From Euryarchaeota archaeon RBG_19FT_COMBO_69_17 (GTDB lineage: Archaea; Thermoplasmatota; Thermoplasmata; RBG-16-68-12): a DNA stretch of 35,646 nucleotides. The notes under the pieces were generated by a model, which saw only the letters and a program-made list of their open reading frames with translations, had not been told where the DNA came from and did no database searches. The translations under genes and the position numbers were made by a program. Of this stretch, positions 5,866 through 18,439 are shown in pieces (within the stretch, counting starts at the first letter, position 1; each line of letters starts with the position of its first letter). The stretch covers positions 844-36,489 of the forward strand of contig MGWD01000066.1 of NCBI GenBank assembly GCA_001800825.1, read 5' to 3'.

Positions 5866-6375
5866 ATGGGCCGGACGATCCCGACGTACCGCCTCCACCT
5901 CGAGTCGATCCTCAACGACTGGATGGACTACCGCCGGGCCCTCCGGGAGAAGGACCGGGAGGCCTTCGACCGCCTCGTCGCCAAGGCGAGGCAGCACGCG
6001 AGCGCGGCGAGCTTCGCGGCCCACCTCGACCCGACGGCCCTCGCGATCCTGTCCATCCTCCTGGAGACGGAGAAGGAGATCGGGGCCGCAAAGGATATGG
6101 GTATGCATATGCATACGCAAGACGAGATGGCGAAGAACATCGCCGTGGCCGACGACGTGTACGCGATGCTCTCGAAGGAGAAGAGGGAGGGGGAGAGCTT
6201 CAGCGACGTGATCCGGCGACTCGGGAAGCGGCGGAAGAGCCTCCTCGAGTTCGCGGGCGCGTGGGCGGACATCCCCGACGAGGAGTTCCGGGAGATGGAG
6301 GCCGCGTGGGCATGGGCGAACCAGCCCCTCGAGGAGGCGCTCGGGCGCCGGGGGAAGCGCGTTGAAGGTCCTTGA
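5866..6375 (+). CDS. Two-part protein: DUF8156-like N-terminal region fused in frame to a VapB-type antitoxin
   Basis: N-part MGRTIPTYRLHLESILNDWMDYRRALREKDREAFDRLVAKARQHASAASF...LLETEKEI; C-part MAKNIAVADDVYAMLSKEKREGESFSDVIRRLGKRRKSLLEFAG typical of archaeal VapB; internal ATG at 6127. Confidence 0.75.
   Translation: MGRTIPTYRLHLESILNDWMDYRRALREKDREAFDRLVAKARQHASAASFAAHLDPTALAILSILLETEKEIGAAKDMGMHMHTQDEMAKNIAVADDVYAMLSKEKREGESFSDVIRRLGKRRKSLLEFAGAWADIPDEEFREMEAAWAWANQPLEEALGRRGKRVEGP
6101..6116. repeat. 16-bp perfect palindrome GTATGCATATGCATAC inside the fusion ORF
   Basis: Read directly; AT-rich island in GC-rich coding DNA, 10 nt before the internal vapB-like ATG. Confidence 0.7.
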
Positions 6376-6763
6376 CACGACGTTCCTCGTCGACGTCCTG
6401 CGGAACGTCCCCGCGGCGATCGACAGGCTGCGCGCGCTCGAGGCGGAGGGGCCCCTCGCGACGACGGAGATCGTGGCCTACGAGCTGTACCATGGGATCC
6501 AGCACCTGGGCCGGAGGCGGCGGGAGACGGAGGCGGCCCGCATCGAGGAGCTCCTCGCCCAGACGGACGTCTTCGTGTTCGACCGGCGGTCCGCGATCCG
6601 GGCCGCGGAGATGTCCGGGGAGCTCCGCCGTCGCGGGCAGAGCATCGGGGTCGTGGACCTGCTCATCGCGGCCGTCGCGCTCACCCTCGGGGCCGAGGCG
6701 GTCGTGACCCGGGACGCCTCGAGCTTCGCCCACGTGGGCGGGCTCCGCGTGGAAACGTATTGA
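6362..6763 (+). CDS. vapC: PIN-domain toxin (VapC)
   Basis: KVLDTTFLVDVLRNVPAAI ... TTEIVAYELYHGI ... GVVDLLIAAVALTLGAEAVVTRDASSFAHVGGLRVETY; TTG start overlapping upstream ORF. Confidence 0.9.
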   Translation: MKVLDTTFLVDVLRNVPAAIDRLRALEAEGPLATTEIVAYELYHGIQHLGRRRRETEAARIEELLAQTDVFVFDRRSAIRAAEMSGELRRRGQSIGVVDLLIAAVALTLGAEAVVTRDASSFAHVGGLRVETY

Positions 6764-6786
6764 ACCTCCGACGATTTGCCGGCGTG

Positions 6787-7302
6787 ATGATCCGGGACGC
6801 GGGGGATGCCGACCGGGCGGCCCTCGAGCGCGTCGCGCGGGCCTCCTTCGACGGGATCTACGCGTTCTTCGCCCTCCGCGGGATCCGCCGCGCGGACCCC
6901 CTCCTCGTCGCCGAGGACGGCGGCGCGGTCGTCGGATTCCTCGAGGGACTCGTCTTCGACGGTGCGCCTCGGATCGGGTATGTGTACTTCGTCGCGGTGG
7001 ACCCCGGCCATCGGGGGCACGGCCACGCCCGGGCCCTCGTCGGGGAGGCCCTCCGCTGCTTCGAGGCCCGGCAGGCGACCCGCGCTTTCGCCGCGGTCCC
7101 CGACGACAACGACGCGTCTCGCCGCCTCTTCGAGTCCCTCGGTTTCGAGGAGGTCCCGCGGTCCGCCCTCCGGCAGTGGTACGGCTGGCGGGGGATCGGG
7201 GTCCAGATGCGGATGGTCCTCGCCCCCCACGAGGTCCTCCTGGCGCGTACTTTCGCGGACCCCTCCCCGGCGCCCGCTCAAGAGGCCCCCCGTCCCTCGT
7301 AG
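6787..7302 (+). CDS. GNAT-family N-acetyltransferase
   Basis: MIRDAGDADRAALERVARASF ... VYFVAVDPGHRGHGHARALVGEALR ... FAAVPDDNDASRRLFESLGFEEV. Confidence 0.9.
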   Translation: MIRDAGDADRAALERVARASFDGIYAFFALRGIRRADPLLVAEDGGAVVGFLEGLVFDGAPRIGYVYFVAVDPGHRGHGHARALVGEALRCFEARQATRAFAAVPDDNDASRRLFESLGFEEVPRSALRQWYGWRGIGVQMRMVLAPHEVLLARTFADPSPAPAQEAPRPS

Positions 7303-7310
7303 GACGGGGG
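7287..7310 (+). other. 9-bp-stem RNA hairpin at the GNAT stop / PolB upstream junction
   Basis: CCCCCGTCC (7287-7295) - CTCGTA - GGACGGGGG (7302-7310), perfect complement. Confidence 0.6.
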
Positions 7311-7366
7311 AGACCGCCACGCACGGCTGGATCATCGACGCGTACGGGGACCTCGACCGCGATGCC

Positions 7367-10258
7367 ATGGTCCTCTGGCTCTGGAACGAGCAGGGGGCCC
7401 ACCGGATCGAGGACCCGCGGTTCCTCCCGACGTTCTTCCTCCACGTGCCCCCCGCTGAGCTCCCGGCCCTCCGGCGGCGGATCGAGATCCTCGACGGGGT
7501 GCGGGAGGTCCGCGAGGTCGAGCGCCGGATCGCCTTGGAGGACGAGGAGCCGCGGCCCGTCCTCGAGATCGTCCCGCGGCACTACCGCGACCTGCCGAAG
7601 GTCGCCCGGATCCTCGACTCGAACGGGGGGTACGTCGACCACAAGCTGTTCAACGTCGACCTGAGGCCGAGCCAGCGGTACATGATGGAACACGGGATCT
7701 TCCCCATGGGGCTCGTCCGGCACGCGAACGGCCGCTGGACCCCGGAGGAGGAGCACTTCGCCTTGGACTACCCGCTCCCCCCGCTGCGGCGGTCCCTCCT
7801 GGACCTCCACGTCGACAACCCGATGGGCATCCCGCGGATGCAGGACCGTCTCCTCGGGGCCCGCGTGGACGACGACGAGGTCGACGGGGACGAGGAATCC
7901 ATCCTCCGGGGGATCGAGGCGCTCGTGCGGTCGAAGGATCCCGATGTCCTCCTGACGGACGGCGGGGACGCGTTCACGATGCCCTACCTCGCGCGGAAGG
8001 TCGCGGACCTCGGGATGGACCTGCAGCTCGGGCGGGACCGGGACCGATTCGCGGAGCGGAAGGGGAAGTCCTACTTCACGTACGGGAAGATCGTCTACAA
8101 GCCCGGGCAATACCTCCTGCGCGGGCGCCTGCATCTGGACCGCGGGCACTTCGCGTACCGGGAGAGCGCCCTCGCGGGGCTCGCGGAGCTCTCGCGACTC
8201 TCCACGCTCACGCCTCAGGAGCAGGCCCGCCTCACGCCGGGCACGGCTTTCACCGCGATGCAGGTGAACCTCGCCCACAAGGACGGAACCCTCGTCCTCT
8301 GGAAGAAGAACCGACCGGAGGGATTCAAGAGCGCGGAGGATCTCCTCCGGGGCGATCGTGGCGGTTTCATTTTCGAGCCGGAAGTCGGTTTGCACGAAGG
8401 ACTCTACGAACTCGATTTCTTTGCCCTCTACCCTAGCATTATGGTCGGCTGCAATATCTCGGCTGAGACCCTCGACTGTCCATGTTGCACACTCGATGGA
8501 CGCGCCGTTCCGGAGTTGAGATATCACTTTTGCAGGCGACGTCTCGGGTTGATCCCTAGGGTTCTCAAGCCCGTGCTTGAACGCAGGCGATACTACAAGA
8601 AAATGAAGAGAGAACCGGGGCCTTTACAAGAAATCTACGTGGGGCGGGACACCATCTTGAAGTGGCTGTTGGTGACGTGTCTCGATGGGTCTACAGTCGT
8701 CCCTTTCAAGATTAACGGCGAGTACCGTATCTCTAGAATCGATCAAGTAATTGATCGCTACCTCAGGACCGAGGGTACACTGGAGCCGGATGATAGCATC
8801 TTTGTGTTGGGACCTGGGAAGGACTTTGAACTCACGGAAAAGCGCGTGAGAAAAGTCATCAAGGCAAAGGCGCCCGATAGCGAGTTGCTCATCCGGACTC
8901 GCGGGGGAAGGGAGATCCTTGCGACGCCGAACCATCAATTCTTTGTGCTGGCAAACGATGGCAACTTGCTGGAAAGAAGATCTGACGAACTGAAAGTAGG
9001 CGATTTCCTTCCGGAATACGCCTCGCTCCCTCTGGAGAGCAAAGCGCCTAGCACATTCGACATCTTGAGGCCCTTTCATGCTTCGCTCACAAGCGAAGAG
9101 CGACCGGGGGAGCTCCCTCCGGCTGCAAAGAATCTTTTGCGACTCGTGTCCGCAGACCTTTCATTTAGGCGTGTCGAGAAAATCGTTTCCGTTCCTCGCC
9201 GATCAGAGTACGTTTATTGTTTCGAAACCGAGGATAAACCGCACGGTTTCGTGATCGCCGGCGGCATAGTCGTTGGGAATAGTTTTGGGTACACCGGCTA
9301 CAAAAATGCCCGTTTCGGCCGCATCGAGTGCCACGAGGCGATCAACGCGTACGCGCGGGACATCCTCGTGCGCACGATGGAGATCTCCGAATCCCACGGA
9401 TACGAGGTCGTCCATGGCATCGTGGACTCCGTCTGGCTCCGGCCCAAGCCCGACGCGGATCCCATCGAGAAGGTCCGGGAGCACATCGCAGGCTCCATCG
9501 GCCTCCCCATCGAGCTCGAGGGGCGGTACAAGTGGATCGTCTTCCTGCCCTGCAAGACGACGGGCGTGGGCGCCCTGAACCGCTACTACGGGCTCTTCGA
9601 GGACGGCGAATTCAAGCTCCGCGGGATCGAGCTGCGGAAGCACGACACCCCGGAGTTCATCAACATCGCCCAGGAGGCGATGCTCGGGGAGCTGAGCTAT
9701 GCGTCGACCGCGGAGGAGTTCCGGGAGCGGATCCCCCGCGCGGTGAACGTCCTCCGGTGGACCGCGAAGCGCGTCCTCGACCGCGCGATCCCGGTCCACC
9801 AGTTCATCCTCACGCGGAACGTGACGAAGGCCCTTCCCGAGTACGTCGTCCTCACGGCGACCGCGGCGGCCCTCAAGCAGATGGAGAAGCGCGGGTTCTC
9901 CGTGGAGCCCGGGGAGACGGTCCGGTACGTCCTCCTCGACGCCCGCGCGCGCGATTCCGAGCGGAAGGTGCGGGTCGCGGAGTTCCTCCAGGGGGACGAG
10001 GAGCCCGACGCGTGGGAGTACATCCGCCTCCTCTGCCGCTCCGGGCAGACCCTCCTCGCGCCCTTCGGGTACACGGAGGACCGGCTGTACGGGATGTGCA
10101 AGGACCTCGGGGACGTCCGCCCGCCCACGGGGGACGATGGGGTCCGGATCCAGGAGGACTACAAGTCCCGGGGCCACAGCCGCGCCCGCGGCGGGGTCGG
10201 GTACAAGCGGCCGTGGAAGATCGAGGACCCGCCCGAGGCGGATCCCGACGTAGCGTGA
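7367..10258 (+). CDS. Family-B DNA polymerase (divergent, PolB2-like) interrupted by an in-frame mini-intein; start uncertain, coding probably begins upstream of 7367
   Basis: Motif A ELDFFALYPSIM; motif B KWLLVT/SFGYTGYKNARFG (split by intein); motif C VVHGIVDSVWL; ELSRLSTLTPQEQARLTPGTAFTAMQ. Confidence 0.88.
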   Translation: MVLWLWNEQGAHRIEDPRFLPTFFLHVPPAELPALRRRIEILDGVREVREVERRIALEDEEPRPVLEIVPRHYRDLPKVARILDSNGGYVDHKLFNVDLRPSQRYMMEHGIFPMGLVRHANGRWTPEEEHFALDYPLPPLRRSLLDLHVDNPMGIPRMQDRLLGARVDDDEVDGDEESILRGIEALVRSKDPDVLLTDGGDAFTMPYLARKVADLGMDLQLGRDRDRFAERKGKSYFTYGKIVYKPGQYLLRGRLHLDRGHFAYRESALAGLAELSRLSTLTPQEQARLTPGTAFTAMQVNLAHKDGTLVLWKKNRPEGFKSAEDLLRGDRGGFIFEPEVGLHEGLYELDFFALYPSIMVGCNISAETLDCPCCTLDGRAVPELRYHFCRRRLGLIPRVLKPVLERRRYYKKMKREPGPLQEIYVGRDTILKWLLVTCLDGSTVVPFKINGEYRISRIDQVIDRYLRTEGTLEPDDSIFVLGPGKDFELTEKRVRKVIKAKAPDSELLIRTRGGREILATPNHQFFVLANDGNLLERRSDELKVGDFLPEYASLPLESKAPSTFDILRPFHASLTSEERPGELPPAAKNLLRLVSADLSFRRVEKIVSVPRRSEYVYCFETEDKPHGFVIAGGIVVGNSFGYTGYKNARFGRIECHEAINAYARDILVRTMEISESHGYEVVHGIVDSVWLRPKPDADPIEKVREHIAGSIGLPIELEGRYKWIVFLPCKTTGVGALNRYYGLFEDGEFKLRGIELRKHDTPEFINIAQEAMLGELSYASTAEEFRERIPRAVNVLRWTAKRVLDRAIPVHQFILTRNVTKALPEYVVLTATAAALKQMEKRGFSVEPGETVRYVLLDARARDSERKVRVAEFLQGDEEPDAWEYIRLLCRSGQTLLAPFGYTEDRLYGMCKDLGDVRPPTGDDGVRIQEDYKSRGHSRARGGVGYKRPWKIEDPPEADPDVA
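8678..9280 (+). other. Mini-intein (201 aa) in PolB motif B
   Basis: Block A CLDGSTVVPFKI, block B GREILATPNHQFFVL, C-terminal HGFVIAGGIVVGN followed by Ser+1; no LAGLIDADG motif seen. Confidence 0.9.
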
Positions 10259-13626: not shown

Positions 13627-13782
13627 CGCGCGGCGAAGGGGGAGGACCCATATAAGCCACCCGAGGTGCGCGAGGACCCTGCGGCCCGCGGGCGCGCCCC
13701 CGGGAGGGGCCTGCGTTTTCAGGATTGATATTCTCCGCACCACGGTCTTATAGCGCAAGGGGGCTCGTTGCCGGGTCAGCCC

Positions 13783-14484
13783 ATGGACCGCGTGCGCACG
13801 TTCATCGACGGCTTCGACGAGCTCCTCGGCGGCGGCGTGCCCAAGGGCTCCGTCGTCCTCGTGTCGGGCGCGGCGGGCACGATGAAGACCGCGATGACCT
13901 TCTCGATCCTGTACGAGAACGTGAAGGCGGGCTCGAAGGCCCTCTACATCAGCCTCGAGGAGAGCCAGGAGGACCTCCGGGCCGCGATGGAGAGCCTCGG
14001 CCTCACGGGCCTCGAGGACATGGAGCTGTACATCCTCGACATCGGGAAGATCCGCCTCGAGCACAGGGAGGAGGAGCTGTCGAAGAACTGGCTCGAGATC
14101 CTCCAGAAGTACATCGACCAGCGCGTCCGGATGAACGGGTTCGACCTCGTCGCGGTCGACAGCCTCGCGGCCCTGTACAGCCTGAGCTCCCTCGCGAACC
14201 CGCGGCGGGACCTGTTCCACTTCTTCGGGTTCCTCAAGGGCCTCGACGCGACGACGTTCCTCATCTCCGAGGTGCCGTCCGGCGGGGACGGCCGCCTGGG
14301 GCGGTTCGAGGAGGAGTTCCTCGCGGACGGGATCCTGTACCTCCGGCAGTTCGAGAAGGGGGAGACGGACGTCCAGCTGCGCCTGCGGTGCGTGAAGATG
14401 CGGAGGACGAAGCACGAGCGCGGCTACTACGTCCTGATCCGGGACGGCGTGAAGTTCCAGCTCGCCCCCGCGATCTCAGAGTGA
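13783..14484 (+). CDS. RAD55/KaiC-like RecA-superfamily ATPase (paralog 1)
   Basis: GGGVPKGSVVLVSGAAGTMKTAMTF (Walker A-like), LYISLEESQEDL, FDLVAVDSLAALYSL (Walker B), RLRCVKMRRTKHERGYYVL. Confidence 0.9.
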   Translation: MDRVRTFIDGFDELLGGGVPKGSVVLVSGAAGTMKTAMTFSILYENVKAGSKALYISLEESQEDLRAAMESLGLTGLEDMELYILDIGKIRLEHREEELSKNWLEILQKYIDQRVRMNGFDLVAVDSLAALYSLSSLANPRRDLFHFFGFLKGLDATTFLISEVPSGGDGRLGRFEEEFLADGILYLRQFEKGETDVQLRLRCVKMRRTKHERGYYVLIRDGVKFQLAPAISE

Positions 14485-15249
14485 CGTCTTCTGGAGGAGC
14501 TTGAGGAGGGCCTCCGCGTAGCGGGCCCCGAGCTTCTCGTCCCCGAACGTCTTCGTCGCCGCGGCCTTGTTGTCCTCGATCGCCTCGACCGTCTTCGTGA
14601 GGACGGACACGACGTCCTTCCCCGGCGCGCGGCGGAAGAGGGCCGCGATCGACGTGCCCTCGCCGTTCATGAGGACGAGCCGGCCCACGGGCAGGTGCAG
14701 GACGTACGTCCCCTTGCCGCGGCGGGAGGCCTCCCGCTGGATGAGGGCGGACACCTCGGGCTGGTCGAGGTACGCGGTCTCCCCGGACTTCGCGAGGACC
14801 TTCCCCGCCTTCCGGACGATCATGAGGGCCATCGCGTTCGACTCCCGCCCCGTCGCGGCGAGCTCGGACCAGAACGCGGCCTGGAGGGAGAGGGAGCGCA
14901 GGCGGCGCCGGAGGGCCGTCATCGCCTCCCGGTCCTGGGTCCGGGAGAGCTCCTTGAGCTCCGCCTCCATCTGCTTCGCCTCGCTCGGGTGGAGGAGGTG
15001 CCGGAACGTCTGGAACTCCTGGCCCAGGGCGTCCAGCTCGCTCGCGGAATGGGTTCTCGGGGACTCGGGCATGGGCGCCTCCGGCGGATCGCGCCCCGCG
15101 GCCAGGTCCGGGTTCTCCTGCTCGATCAGGTCGACCGCGTCCGCGAGGGGCACGTTCGGGTGGCGAAGCATCGCTTCCATCACGACGCCCCCGCGGCCCT
15201 CGAGTTCCCAGCGGAGGAGTTTCAAGGCTGCCTCGTCGCGCTTCGCCAT
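14476..15249 (-). CDS. Hypothetical protein, 257 aa
   Basis: Complete ORF with matching codon usage; converges with the RAD55-like gene (9-nt overlap). Confidence 0.75.
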   Translation of the reverse strand: MAKRDEAALKLLRWELEGRGGVVMEAMLRHPNVPLADAVDLIEQENPDLAAGRDPPEAPMPESPRTHSASELDALGQEFQTFRHLLHPSEAKQMEAELKELSRTQDREAMTALRRRLRSLSLQAAFWSELAATGRESNAMALMIVRKAGKVLAKSGETAYLDQPEVSALIQREASRRGKGTYVLHLPVGRLVLMNGEGTSIAALFRRAPGKDVVSVLTKTVEAIEDNKAAATKTFGDEKLGARYAEALLKLLQKTSL

Positions 15250-15422
15250 CCCTTCTCGGGCGGGTGGAACGACCTGGGCCTACAAAAGGGCTTCCCTCCC
15301 GTGGGCCGCCTCCTGGACGCCGTCGCGGGCGCGCGCCCGCGCGGGACCCGCGCGCGAATGAATATCTGCCTCGATAACGAAGGCGCCACGCCTTTATAAT
15401 GCGCACCTCGTCGCATCCTCGC

Positions 15423-16142
15423 ATGGAAGTCGAGGTGCCCCTCGTCCACTCCTACGTGGACGGTCTCGACAAGATTCTGGGGGGCGGCGTCCCGAAGGGG
15501 AGCACGGTCCTCGTCGCCGGCACGCCGGGCACGATGAAGACGTCCCTCATCCTGTGGGTCATGAACGAGAACGCGAAGCGCCACGGGACGAAGGGGCTCT
15601 ACGTGAGCCTGGAGCAGGACGCGGACAGCCTCCGGACGGGCGCGGCGCGGATGGGGATGACGGACCTCCAGGAATCCCGCGTGTACATCCTCGACATGGG
15701 GCAGCTCCGGCGGGGCCTGTTCCGCGCGGAGAGCTCGAAGGACTGGGTCACGATCCTCCTCGAGATCATCAAGGAGGCCGTCACGTCGAGCGGGTACGGG
15801 ATGCTCGCCCTCGACAGCCTCGAGGCCCTGTACGCCCTCGCGGACCTGAAGGCCCCGCGGCGGGAGATGTTCCACCTCCTCGGGAGCCTCAAGGAGCTCG
15901 GCCTCACGACGTTCCTCATCGCGGAGACGCCCTTCGGGTCGTCGCGGCTCACCCAGTGGGGGGAGGACTTCCTGTGCGACGGGATCCTCCATCTCCGCAT
16001 GGTCGACGTCGGGGAGGCGGAGGCCCAGCTCCGCCTGCGGTGCGTGAAGATGCGCTTCATGAACCACGACCGGAGCGCCCTCGCCCTGAACCACGATGGC
16101 GAGAAGTTCTTCGTCAGCCATGTGATCTCGCGGAAGAAGTGA
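15423..16142 (+). CDS. RAD55/KaiC-like ATPase (paralog 2)
   Basis: GGGVPKGSTVLVAGTPGTMKTSLIL, LYVSLEQDADSL, GMLALDSLEALYAL, RLRCVKMRFMNHDRS. Confidence 0.9.
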   Translation: MEVEVPLVHSYVDGLDKILGGGVPKGSTVLVAGTPGTMKTSLILWVMNENAKRHGTKGLYVSLEQDADSLRTGAARMGMTDLQESRVYILDMGQLRRGLFRAESSKDWVTILLEIIKEAVTSSGYGMLALDSLEALYALADLKAPRREMFHLLGSLKELGLTTFLIAETPFGSSRLTQWGEDFLCDGILHLRMVDVGEAEAQLRLRCVKMRFMNHDRSALALNHDGEKFFVSHVISRKK

Positions 16143-16197
16143 GCCGCGACGGGAAGGCGGGGAAAGGTTCTTGGCGGCCCGGGGCCGTCCTGCGTCG

Positions 16198-16611
16198 ATG
16201 TTCACCCCGGGCGGCGTGGACCGCTGGGTCTCCTTCGAGCTCGGGCGGATCAACGACGGGCTCGTCGTGGAGCGGAAGAGCCTCGCGGCCCTGCGCCGAG
16301 AGGCGCGGCCCGCGTGCCGGACGCGGTCCGGGGACGAGCATCTCTTCGATCGGCAGGTCCTCGAGCGCCTCGCGGGCCTCCTCACGGCGGACGAGGCGGG
16401 CACCCTACGGCTGCCCGTGACCCTTATCGCCTCCGGGGACCTCGGGGACAGCGTCGTCCTCTCGGACGCCCTCGGGGCCAAGGCGATCCGCGCCCTCGAG
16501 GGGTTCGGAGAGGCGTTCCCGTACCGGGACGGGCGGATGGTCCTCCCGCACTCCCTCGCCCTCGAGGTCGTGCGGACGGCGGGCGGCGCGGTCCAGATCG
16601 CGTTCGGCTGA
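16198..16611 (+). CDS. UPF0216 (DUF61) family protein
   Basis: RWVSFELGRINDGLVVERKSLAALRREARPACRTRSGDEHLFDRQVLERLAGLL. Confidence 0.85.
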   Translation: MFTPGGVDRWVSFELGRINDGLVVERKSLAALRREARPACRTRSGDEHLFDRQVLERLAGLLTADEAGTLRLPVTLIASGDLGDSVVLSDALGAKAIRALEGFGEAFPYRDGRMVLPHSLALEVVRTAGGAVQIAFG

Positions 16612-16618
16612 GGCCGGC

Positions 16619-17053
16619 CTACGCCTCGTCCGACTTCCCCTTCCGGGACGCCCAGAAGTCCTCGGGGACGTCGTCGTAGACGGAGGCGGCCTTCGCGGCC
16701 TCCTCCTTCGCCTTCTGGGCCGCGACGAGCTCCGCGATCCGGTCCTTCCGGAACATCCAGTAGTGGATCCGCCACTCCCGGCCGTCGTAGAGGGTCGTCT
16801 CCTCCCTCTCCGTCGTCAGGATCCCGGAGTCCTCGAGCATGTAGAACGCGTCCCGGTCCTCCGGCTCCAGGACGTTGTCGATGATCCGCTCGGAGTAGCC
16901 GAAGAAGTTGAGGACGTGCTGGGCCATGGACCGGGCCTCTTCCTCCTTCATCCCGGTCCGGTCGATCGAGTTCTTGATCGCCCGCGTGAGGTCGTCGACG
17001 GAGAGGGTCCCGGCGGGGCCGCGCTCCGGTTTCGTCTTGATCGCCATGGGCAC
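16619..17053 (-). CDS. DUF6015-like hypothetical protein
   Basis: LTRAIKNSIDRTGMKEEEARSMAQHVLNFFGYSERIIDNVLEPEDRDAFYMLEDSGILTTEREETTLYDGREWRIHYWM. Confidence 0.75.
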   Translation of the reverse strand: MPMAIKTKPERGPAGTLSVDDLTRAIKNSIDRTGMKEEEARSMAQHVLNFFGYSERIIDNVLEPEDRDAFYMLEDSGILTTEREETTLYDGREWRIHYWMFRKDRIAELVAAQKAKEEAAKAASVYDDVPEDFWASRKGKSDEA

Positions 17054-17141
17054 CCTCGGGGCGTTCCAATGGGGGCGACGGGCTATTTAACCCTTCGGCC
17101 CCTCTGTCTCCCGTTGATTATCAACCTTCCCTCCGGGGTGC

Positions 17142-18050
17142 GTGCAAAGGGTTAACGAGCGCGGGGCCCTTGTCCGTATCCGGATGGCCCAGGGCGTCGA
17201 GTGGGTCGGGCCCGCCGCGAGTCCGGAGGAGCCGTCGCGGGTCCCGCCTGAGGTCCAGGACGAGGTCCGCGAGCTCCGGGACCAGGTCCGCCGCCTCCAG
17301 GAACAGGTGAACGCCCTCGCGGCCCGCCCGAAGGCAGGGGGCCGGATCCCGACCCACGTCGCGGGCCTCGACGCGGCCCTCGAAGGCGGCATCCCCCGCG
17401 GCCACGTCGTCCTCCTCGCGGGCCCGACCGGGGCGATGAAGACGTCCCTCGCCCTGTACGCCGTCGTGAAGAACCGCGCGGCGGGGGCGCGCGGGCTCTA
17501 CGTGACGATCGAGGAGGGGCGGGACTCCCTCATCCAGACGATGCGCCGCCTCGGCCTCTCGGAGGGGGACGAGTTCCTCGTCGACGTCGCGCGGCTCCGC
17601 CTCGAGCGGACGTCCGCGGAGGACGTGCGGGATTGGATGCGCGTCCTGCGGGACTACCTCGCCCGGCGGCACGAGCGGGAGGCCCTCGGCCTCGTCGTGA
17701 TCGACTCCCTCAACGCCCTCCTCGCCCTCGCGCCCGGGGCGGAGGCCCGCGGGGAGCTGTTCACGTTCTTCACGTTCCTGCGGTCCCTCGGGGCGACGTC
17801 GATCCTCGTCGAGGAGCAGGACCCCGCGGCCCCGCGGGTGGACCCCCAGGCCTCCTTCCTCGCGGACGGCGTCCTCGAACTGCGGTTCAGCGGGGCGGGG
17901 GAGGGCCGCGTCCAGCTCCTCCTCCGCTGCGCGAAGATGCGCCACACGCGGCACTCGAGGGACTACTTCGTCCTCCACCACGACGGCAAGAGGTTCGTCG
18001 CGAACCCCTACGAGGCCCCCCGCGGGCGGCGCTGGGGCCGCCGCGGCTGA
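17142..18050 (+). CDS. RAD55/KaiC-like ATPase with N-terminal coiled coil (paralog 3); alternative start 17184
   Basis: EVRELRDQVRRLQEQVNALA coiled coil; GGIPRGHVVLLAGPTGAMKTSLALY; LYVTIEEGRDSL; LGLVVIDSLNALLAL; LLRCAKMRHTRHSRDYFVL. Confidence 0.9.
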   Translation: MQRVNERGALVRIRMAQGVEWVGPAASPEEPSRVPPEVQDEVRELRDQVRRLQEQVNALAARPKAGGRIPTHVAGLDAALEGGIPRGHVVLLAGPTGAMKTSLALYAVVKNRAAGARGLYVTIEEGRDSLIQTMRRLGLSEGDEFLVDVARLRLERTSAEDVRDWMRVLRDYLARRHEREALGLVVIDSLNALLALAPGAEARGELFTFFTFLRSLGATSILVEEQDPAAPRVDPQASFLADGVLELRFSGAGEGRVQLLLRCAKMRHTRHSRDYFVLHHDGKRFVANPYEAPRGRRWGRRG

Positions 18051-18052
18051 GC

Positions 18053-18439
18053 TCAGAAGTTGCCCTTGATCTTCGCCCGGTCGATCTTGATCCCCGCGGG
18101 CGTGGCCATGAGCATGTTCTTGCCCACGACGGCGACGTCGCCCCCGCAATCCCGGACCGCGCTCTTGAGCTCCGCGGTGATCCGCTTCAGGGCGAGCTCG
18201 TCGCTCGAGACGCTCGTGTAGTCCAGGACGAGGATGTTCCCGTTGTACACGTGGGTCGCGAGGTCGTTCACGTCCTCGTAGCGGTAGATCTCCGCGACTT
18301 TCACGAGGTGCTCCACGGGCTCCCCGAGCCCGCCGCCCTCGCCTTCGAAGCTCAGCTCACCCAGGTCGATGTACGTGTCCGCGTCCGCGGCGGAGCCGCC
18401 CTCCGCGAGGCGCTTGAACGGCTTCTTGATGAAGGCCAT
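18053..18439 (-). CDS. sepF: Cell division protein SepF
   Basis: N-terminal amphipathic MAFIKKPFKRLA; YIDLGEL...VKVAEIYRYEDVNDLATHVYNGNILVLDYTSVSSDELALKRITAELKSAVRDCGGDVAVVGKNMLMATPAGIKIDR. Confidence 0.93.
   Translation of the reverse strand: MAFIKKPFKRLAEGGSAADADTYIDLGELSFEGEGGGLGEPVEHLVKVAEIYRYEDVNDLATHVYNGNILVLDYTSVSSDELALKRITAELKSAVRDCGGDVAVVGKNMLMATPAGIKIDRAKIKGNF

Follow-up and report, generated by a model that had tools for sequence, protein, structure and literature searches.

A class 1 mini-intein in an archaeal PolB2 gene, probably the endonuclease-deleted descendant of a mobile intein

A mini-intein in the translesion polymerase PolB2

The window analyzed here, 35,646 nucleotides of the genome of Euryarchaeota archaeon RBG_19FT_COMBO_69_17, carries a class 1 mini-intein of 201 amino acids at positions 8678-9280 of the + strand, on which all intein and polymerase features below also lie. 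Both its sequence and its predicted fold identify the segment as a genuine intein and exclude chance. It interrupts the gene of the polymerase PolB2 and is very likely of mobile origin, an element that would have lost a LAGLIDADG homing endonuclease and would persist in polB2 by splicing in cis. It represents a new intein allele, in a gene not reported as an intein host in the literature searched, and not a new kind of element.

In-frame translation of the segment begins with CLDGST and ends with HGFVIAGGIVVGN, followed by Ser. The segment matches the Pfam family Intein_splicing (E=3.9e-17) and the NCBIfam model intein_Nterm (1e-10), while intein_Cterm taken alone stays below threshold (0.039). 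The class 1 features comprise Cys1, the N-terminal nucleophile (8678-8680), Ser+1, the TxxH motif of block B (T83-P-N-H86, read TPNH at 8924-8935), and the match to the HINT domain and fold. Block F, VYCFETEDKPHGF (9212-9250), contains Cys181 at an F:4-type position and His189, and the C-terminal splice junction is Gly200-Asn201/Ser+1 (9275-9283). Across 22 same-site inteins, C1, P9, P66, T83, H86, V179, C181, and F191 are invariant. Profile searches of the window intein against Pfam and NCBIfam matched no endonuclease family.

The AlphaFold model, computed from an alignment of the 22 same-site inteins, has a mean pLDDT of 86.3, with only residues 121-141 below 50. This linker (9038-9100) occupies the position of the LAGLIDADG domain in full-length relatives, as aligned to loci L103 and L106, and is a probable deletion scar. 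The best Foldseek match in the PDB is the TFIIB Mvu mini-intein (5o9i, E=7e-11), followed by the RadA (4e2t), PolII (2lcj), and CDC21-1 (6rpp) inteins. Like the window intein, these archaeal HINT domains lack an endonuclease and are of comparable size, but they share only 16-21% identity with it and occupy other hosts and sites. An earlier note, made from sequence alone, had proposed a 201-residue mini-intein with these boundaries, a Gly-Asn C-terminus, and no LAGLIDADG endonuclease. Translation, profile matches, and predicted fold agree with it, and the HINT-domain homology that it had set beforehand as a test was found in the Pfam and 5o9i matches.

The host gene extends from about 7319 to 10258. 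Its N-extein (7319-8677) carries motif A, DFFALYPSI, at 8414-8440. The C-extein (9281-10258), delimited by NCBIfam and PDB alignment, carries the remainder of motif B, SFGYTGYKNARFG, and motif C, HGIVDS, at 9413-9430. Together the exteins match the family B polymerase model PRK05761 of NCBIfam (1.4e-127), and the predicted model of an intein-less orthologue resembles the 9N, KOD, and P. abyssi polymerases. Motif C, HGIVD (9413-9427), has the form HxxxD, which is found in PolB2 enzymes where other PolBs have YxDTD (PMC8764526). A small gene whose product starts with MGRT, the N-terminal motif of the PolB2 partner PPB2 (PMC11791011), lies upstream of polB2 in the window and in most relatives; in the window (5866-6375, + strand) it forms an in-frame fusion with a VapB-type antitoxin domain (VAPB_antitox, 4e-17). 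Because of the HxxxD motif C and the upstream PPB2 gene, we assign the host to PolB2, the extender polymerase of translesion synthesis. The earlier description of a divergent PolB was correct as to family and can be made more precise in this way. The PolB2 (Dpo2) mutasome polymerases of Sulfolobus share both marks, but the main texts of the papers describing them mention no intein (PMC8764526, PMC11791011). PolB2 is damage-inducible in Sulfolobus and, in Sulfolobus islandicus, causes damage-induced mutagenesis (PMC8764526).

The neighborhood has further features. A VapC PIN gene and then a GNAT gene separate the PPB2-VapB fusion from polB2 (5866-7302), and PPB2 stands alone, at 81-100 amino acids, in G014 and other genomes. 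As possible candidates for an iRadA gene near polB2, the window has KaiC-type ATPase genes (13768-18050), three in number and all on the + strand, beside a SepF gene on the - strand (13768-18439 in all).

Uninterrupted genes of congeners read LKWTLVT|SFGYQGYKNARFG at the intein codon, and the model of the intein-less orthologue places the junction, T453|S454, where the motif B helix (residues 437-455) ends, in keeping with the active-site position first proposed. In an ungapped alignment to KOD-type PolB, the T|S junction falls between S492 and Y493. Since PI-TkoII, the T. kodakarensis intein of the classical motif-B allele, sits between N491 and S492, the PolB2 allele lies one codon downstream of that N|S site, in a paralogue. 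The 85-residue spacing of the two T. kodakarensis PolB inteins (PMC8966425) is consistent with this placement. PI-TkoII/PI-PkoII (PDB 2cw7) resembles the window intein, with a HINT splicing domain inserted into this helix of a family B enzyme, and matches it in sequence (4.9e-6) and structure; unlike the window intein, PI-TkoII has an endonuclease and interrupts a replicative-type PolB. In those parts of the literature covered by our search, archaeal PolB inteins are placed in PolB3 and PolB1 only and inteins in PolB2 are not described, which makes PolB2, within that literature, a host gene with no earlier intein report and the site a new one.

Alleles at the insertion codon and traces of homing

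Homologues were collected by whole-genome searches; an earlier back-translated pattern search of contigs had given one weak locus. The PolB2 query was matched (E cut-off 1e-20) in 224 of the 350 sampled genomes of the window's class, and 25 of these roughly 224 genes carry an insert at the same codon: those of G000, G001, G003, G006, G007, and G018, all of the window's genus, of G020, G027, and G029, and of 16 members of family f8. The inteins of G006, G018, and G029 (L103, L106, and L107) are 461-528 amino acids long and contain LAGLIDADG_3 or Hom_end domains, and the remaining complete ones measure 161-201. The site is empty in G004, G008, G013, G015, G024, G026, G030, and others. Outside the class no same-site intein was seen: in the phylum's other classes, the sampled PolB2 sequences are continuous across the site, except for a single match whose start lies past it. 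In family f8, the intein is present in 16 of 16 sampled genomes (L110, L109, and L215-L228), always with the junction HN|C. No endonuclease was found in the twelve f8 inteins extracted, nor in those of G051 and G038. Together with the lack of a GC3 dip in the one f8 genome checked (G051), this distribution suggests long vertical retention of the f8 intein.

The genus is intein-rich in general. The source genome has further inteins in a radical-SAM protein, a ribonucleotide reductase, MCM, and GyrA (L002, L003, L004, L005, and L006), with the MCM intein in two different copies on two contigs, perhaps through contamination.

The intein tree and the extein tree conflict. With moderate support (80/79), the window intein clusters with the intein of G027, to which it is 48% identical, against 37% for the intein of the window's congener G001; the exteins of G027 and the window share only about 45% identity. 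Congeneric inteins share 30-38% identity while their exteins share about 80%, and the G007 intein clusters with those of family f8. Full and empty alleles also occur in close relatives, with a dN of only 0.011 between the intein-bearing G027 gene and its closest, empty relative, G022.

Silent sites are most divergent at the insertion codon. Among twelve congeners, mismatch at fourfold-degenerate sites lies at 0.29-0.42 in distant parts of the gene and at 0.58-0.60 immediately upstream of the site, the mean rising from about 0.35 to 0.60 at the site, and the most divergent 60-codon stretch spans about -53 to +7 codons, over the insertion point. Pairs of empty genes show the peak as well (0.48 versus 0.31), a pattern that repeated homing, conversion, and loss within the genus would produce. 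We read the peak as the probable footprint of recurrent homing, a strong indication that is not conclusive because the divergence, judged by the saturation levels, stems in part from the lower GC of this stretch.

This lower GC extends over the intein together with about 350 nt of extein upstream and about 60 nt downstream (8325-9340; about 0.49-0.57, against about 0.70 elsewhere), and we interpret it as a homing or gene-conversion tract. A search for the donor by sliding identity found no match among the sampled genomes. The dip also occurs at the site in intein-less congeners, and for this reason it cannot by itself date the arrival in the source genome; we rejected the low-GC flank as proof of a recent arrival in that genome alone. 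Its presence in empty genes could mean that the flanks merely have an ordinary local composition, a point on which the origin of the intein as a whole does not turn. We consider this rather unlikely, given that both the dip and the silent divergence peak coincide with the intein codon, and that G045 and G051 (the latter the sole f8 genome checked) lack the GC3 dip.

Because LAGLIDADG-bearing and empty alleles occur at the same codon, the trees are discordant, and silent divergence peaks there, the window intein is most likely the endonuclease-deleted descendant of a mobile intein. Its ancestor would have come from an unsampled relative by endonuclease-driven homing, which would have replaced some 350 nt of the upstream extein by DNA of lower GC. 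Translation would now yield a precursor of about 979 amino acids, in which Cys1 would attack the peptide bond that links it to Thr(-1). The acyl group would then move to Ser+1, and Asn201 would cyclize as the exteins are joined, restoring motif B in a PolB2 of about 778 amino acids. We infer that splicing is nearly constitutive.

The penultimate glycine and conditional splicing

Class 1 inteins end in Asn or Gln, usually preceded by His, although this His is not universal. The window intein ends in Asn201 with Gly200 in place of His, and a glycine that impairs Asn cyclization could count against splicing in cis. The earlier note took it to make splicing slow or conditional and so to gate the polymerase. 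The same-site inteins speak against a special role. Their junctions read HN|C (f8 and G007), GN|S (window, G006, and G027), SN|S (G018), and SN|C (G020), and three end in Gln: GQ|S (G001), PQ|C (G003), and SQ|C (G029). Since same-site inteins carry this variety of endings, and the set is under purifying selection where tested, Gly200 appears from these sequences to be one of several tolerated variants. Nor is a penultimate Gly a habit of the whole genome, an idea we rejected: the host's MCM, GyrA, and ribonucleotide reductase inteins end in HN and its radical-SAM intein in AN.

Published data agree with this picture. The RDF intein of mycobacteriophage Bethlehem, also class 1 with a native penultimate Gly before its C-terminal Asn, splices almost completely, and replacing the Gly with His slows it (PMC5050341); unlike the window intein, it has an endonuclease and lies in another host gene. 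In other inteins, changes of the penultimate residue act either way, and a His in block F can serve in place of the penultimate one (PMC5050341). The window intein retains such a residue, H189. Slow or conditional gating is thus a possible hypothesis that Gly200 does not support.

A splicing switch may be proposed on other grounds, namely that the intein is kept since slow or damage-triggered splicing holds a mutagenic PolB2 off until it is needed. The orthologue model puts the intein where the motif B helix ends, so that an unspliced precursor would be expected to lack activity. In Sulfolobus, PolB2 is a mutagenic polymerase induced by damage (PMC8764526), a switch is known for the RadA intein (PMC5790916), and all 16 sampled f8 genes keep the same-site intein, the f8 pairs tested being under purifying selection (omega 0.13-0.43). 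Constraint on splicing alone, however, gives equal purifying selection, and the patchy presence in the window's genus, with near-identical empty alleles, is what a selfish element predicts. No sensor feature was found, and a penultimate Gly is no predictor of slowness (PMC5050341). We therefore regard a switch as distinctly improbable and favor the endonuclease-deleted, cis-splicing mini-intein.

Frameshifts at the site and what the locus offers

In three congeners, an extra T directly follows the first codon past the insertion point and shifts the frame by +1, in the contexts TGT TTT CGG (G007; L100:2740-3250), TCA TTT CGG (G010; L102:2465-2480), and ACA TTT CGG (G014; L101:2565-2585). Non-frameshifted relatives have one codon and then TTC or TTT GGN in frame, and TTT is nearly absent elsewhere in the gene. 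In G010 and G014 the downstream frame encodes a C-extein of about 330 codons that is intact and conserved and has an omega similar to that of the N-extein. We rejected an independently started C-part in these two genomes, where only 2-3 codons are open upstream in frame and the first start codon comes no earlier than codon 28-31, past motif B. On this sequence context, a slip of tRNA-Phe from UUU to UUC is a candidate event that would bring the reading back into frame; in influenza, frameshifting at UCC UUU CGU produces PA-X. Recent repair scars and homing-resistant alleles are alternative leads.

The PolB2 genes of the genus also seem to start at ACG, or at CTG in G003 and G018, where sister lineages have ATG. 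The start position, behind GGGGGAG, was compared across the window (7306-7330) and loci L100-L107 and L111-L113, and upstream starts are ruled out by in-frame stops in G003, G006, G013, and G015. In the window, the putative start is the ACG at 7319-7321 behind GGGGGAG at 7306-7312. Taken together, these features could make the motif-B codon a post-transcriptional gate that limits full-length mutagenic polymerase by an intein in some species and by a programmed +1 frameshift (TTT_CGG) in others, in addition to initiation at a non-AUG codon; we rate this as a long shot. It is highly improbable that the HINT domain is splicing-dead or cleavage-only, with polB2 decaying or working as two fragments: the penultimate Gly and the same-site frameshift in three congeners are what such a reading can draw on, but all nucleophiles and TxxH are intact, in intein-bearing genomes purifying selection acts strongly on both exteins (omega about 0.05-0.25), and most of the class keeps polB2.

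For the mobile-origin mini-intein that we favor, the setting is informative. A single genus displays the full intein life cycle, with endonuclease-bearing, endonuclease-less, and empty alleles and a measurable conversion footprint. The C-terminal dipeptides of the orthologous inteins form a series that occurs in nature (HN, GN, SN, GQ, PQ, and SQ). Finally, the locus allows a concrete test between two roles for inteins in a damage-tolerance polymerase, that of parasite and that of switch.
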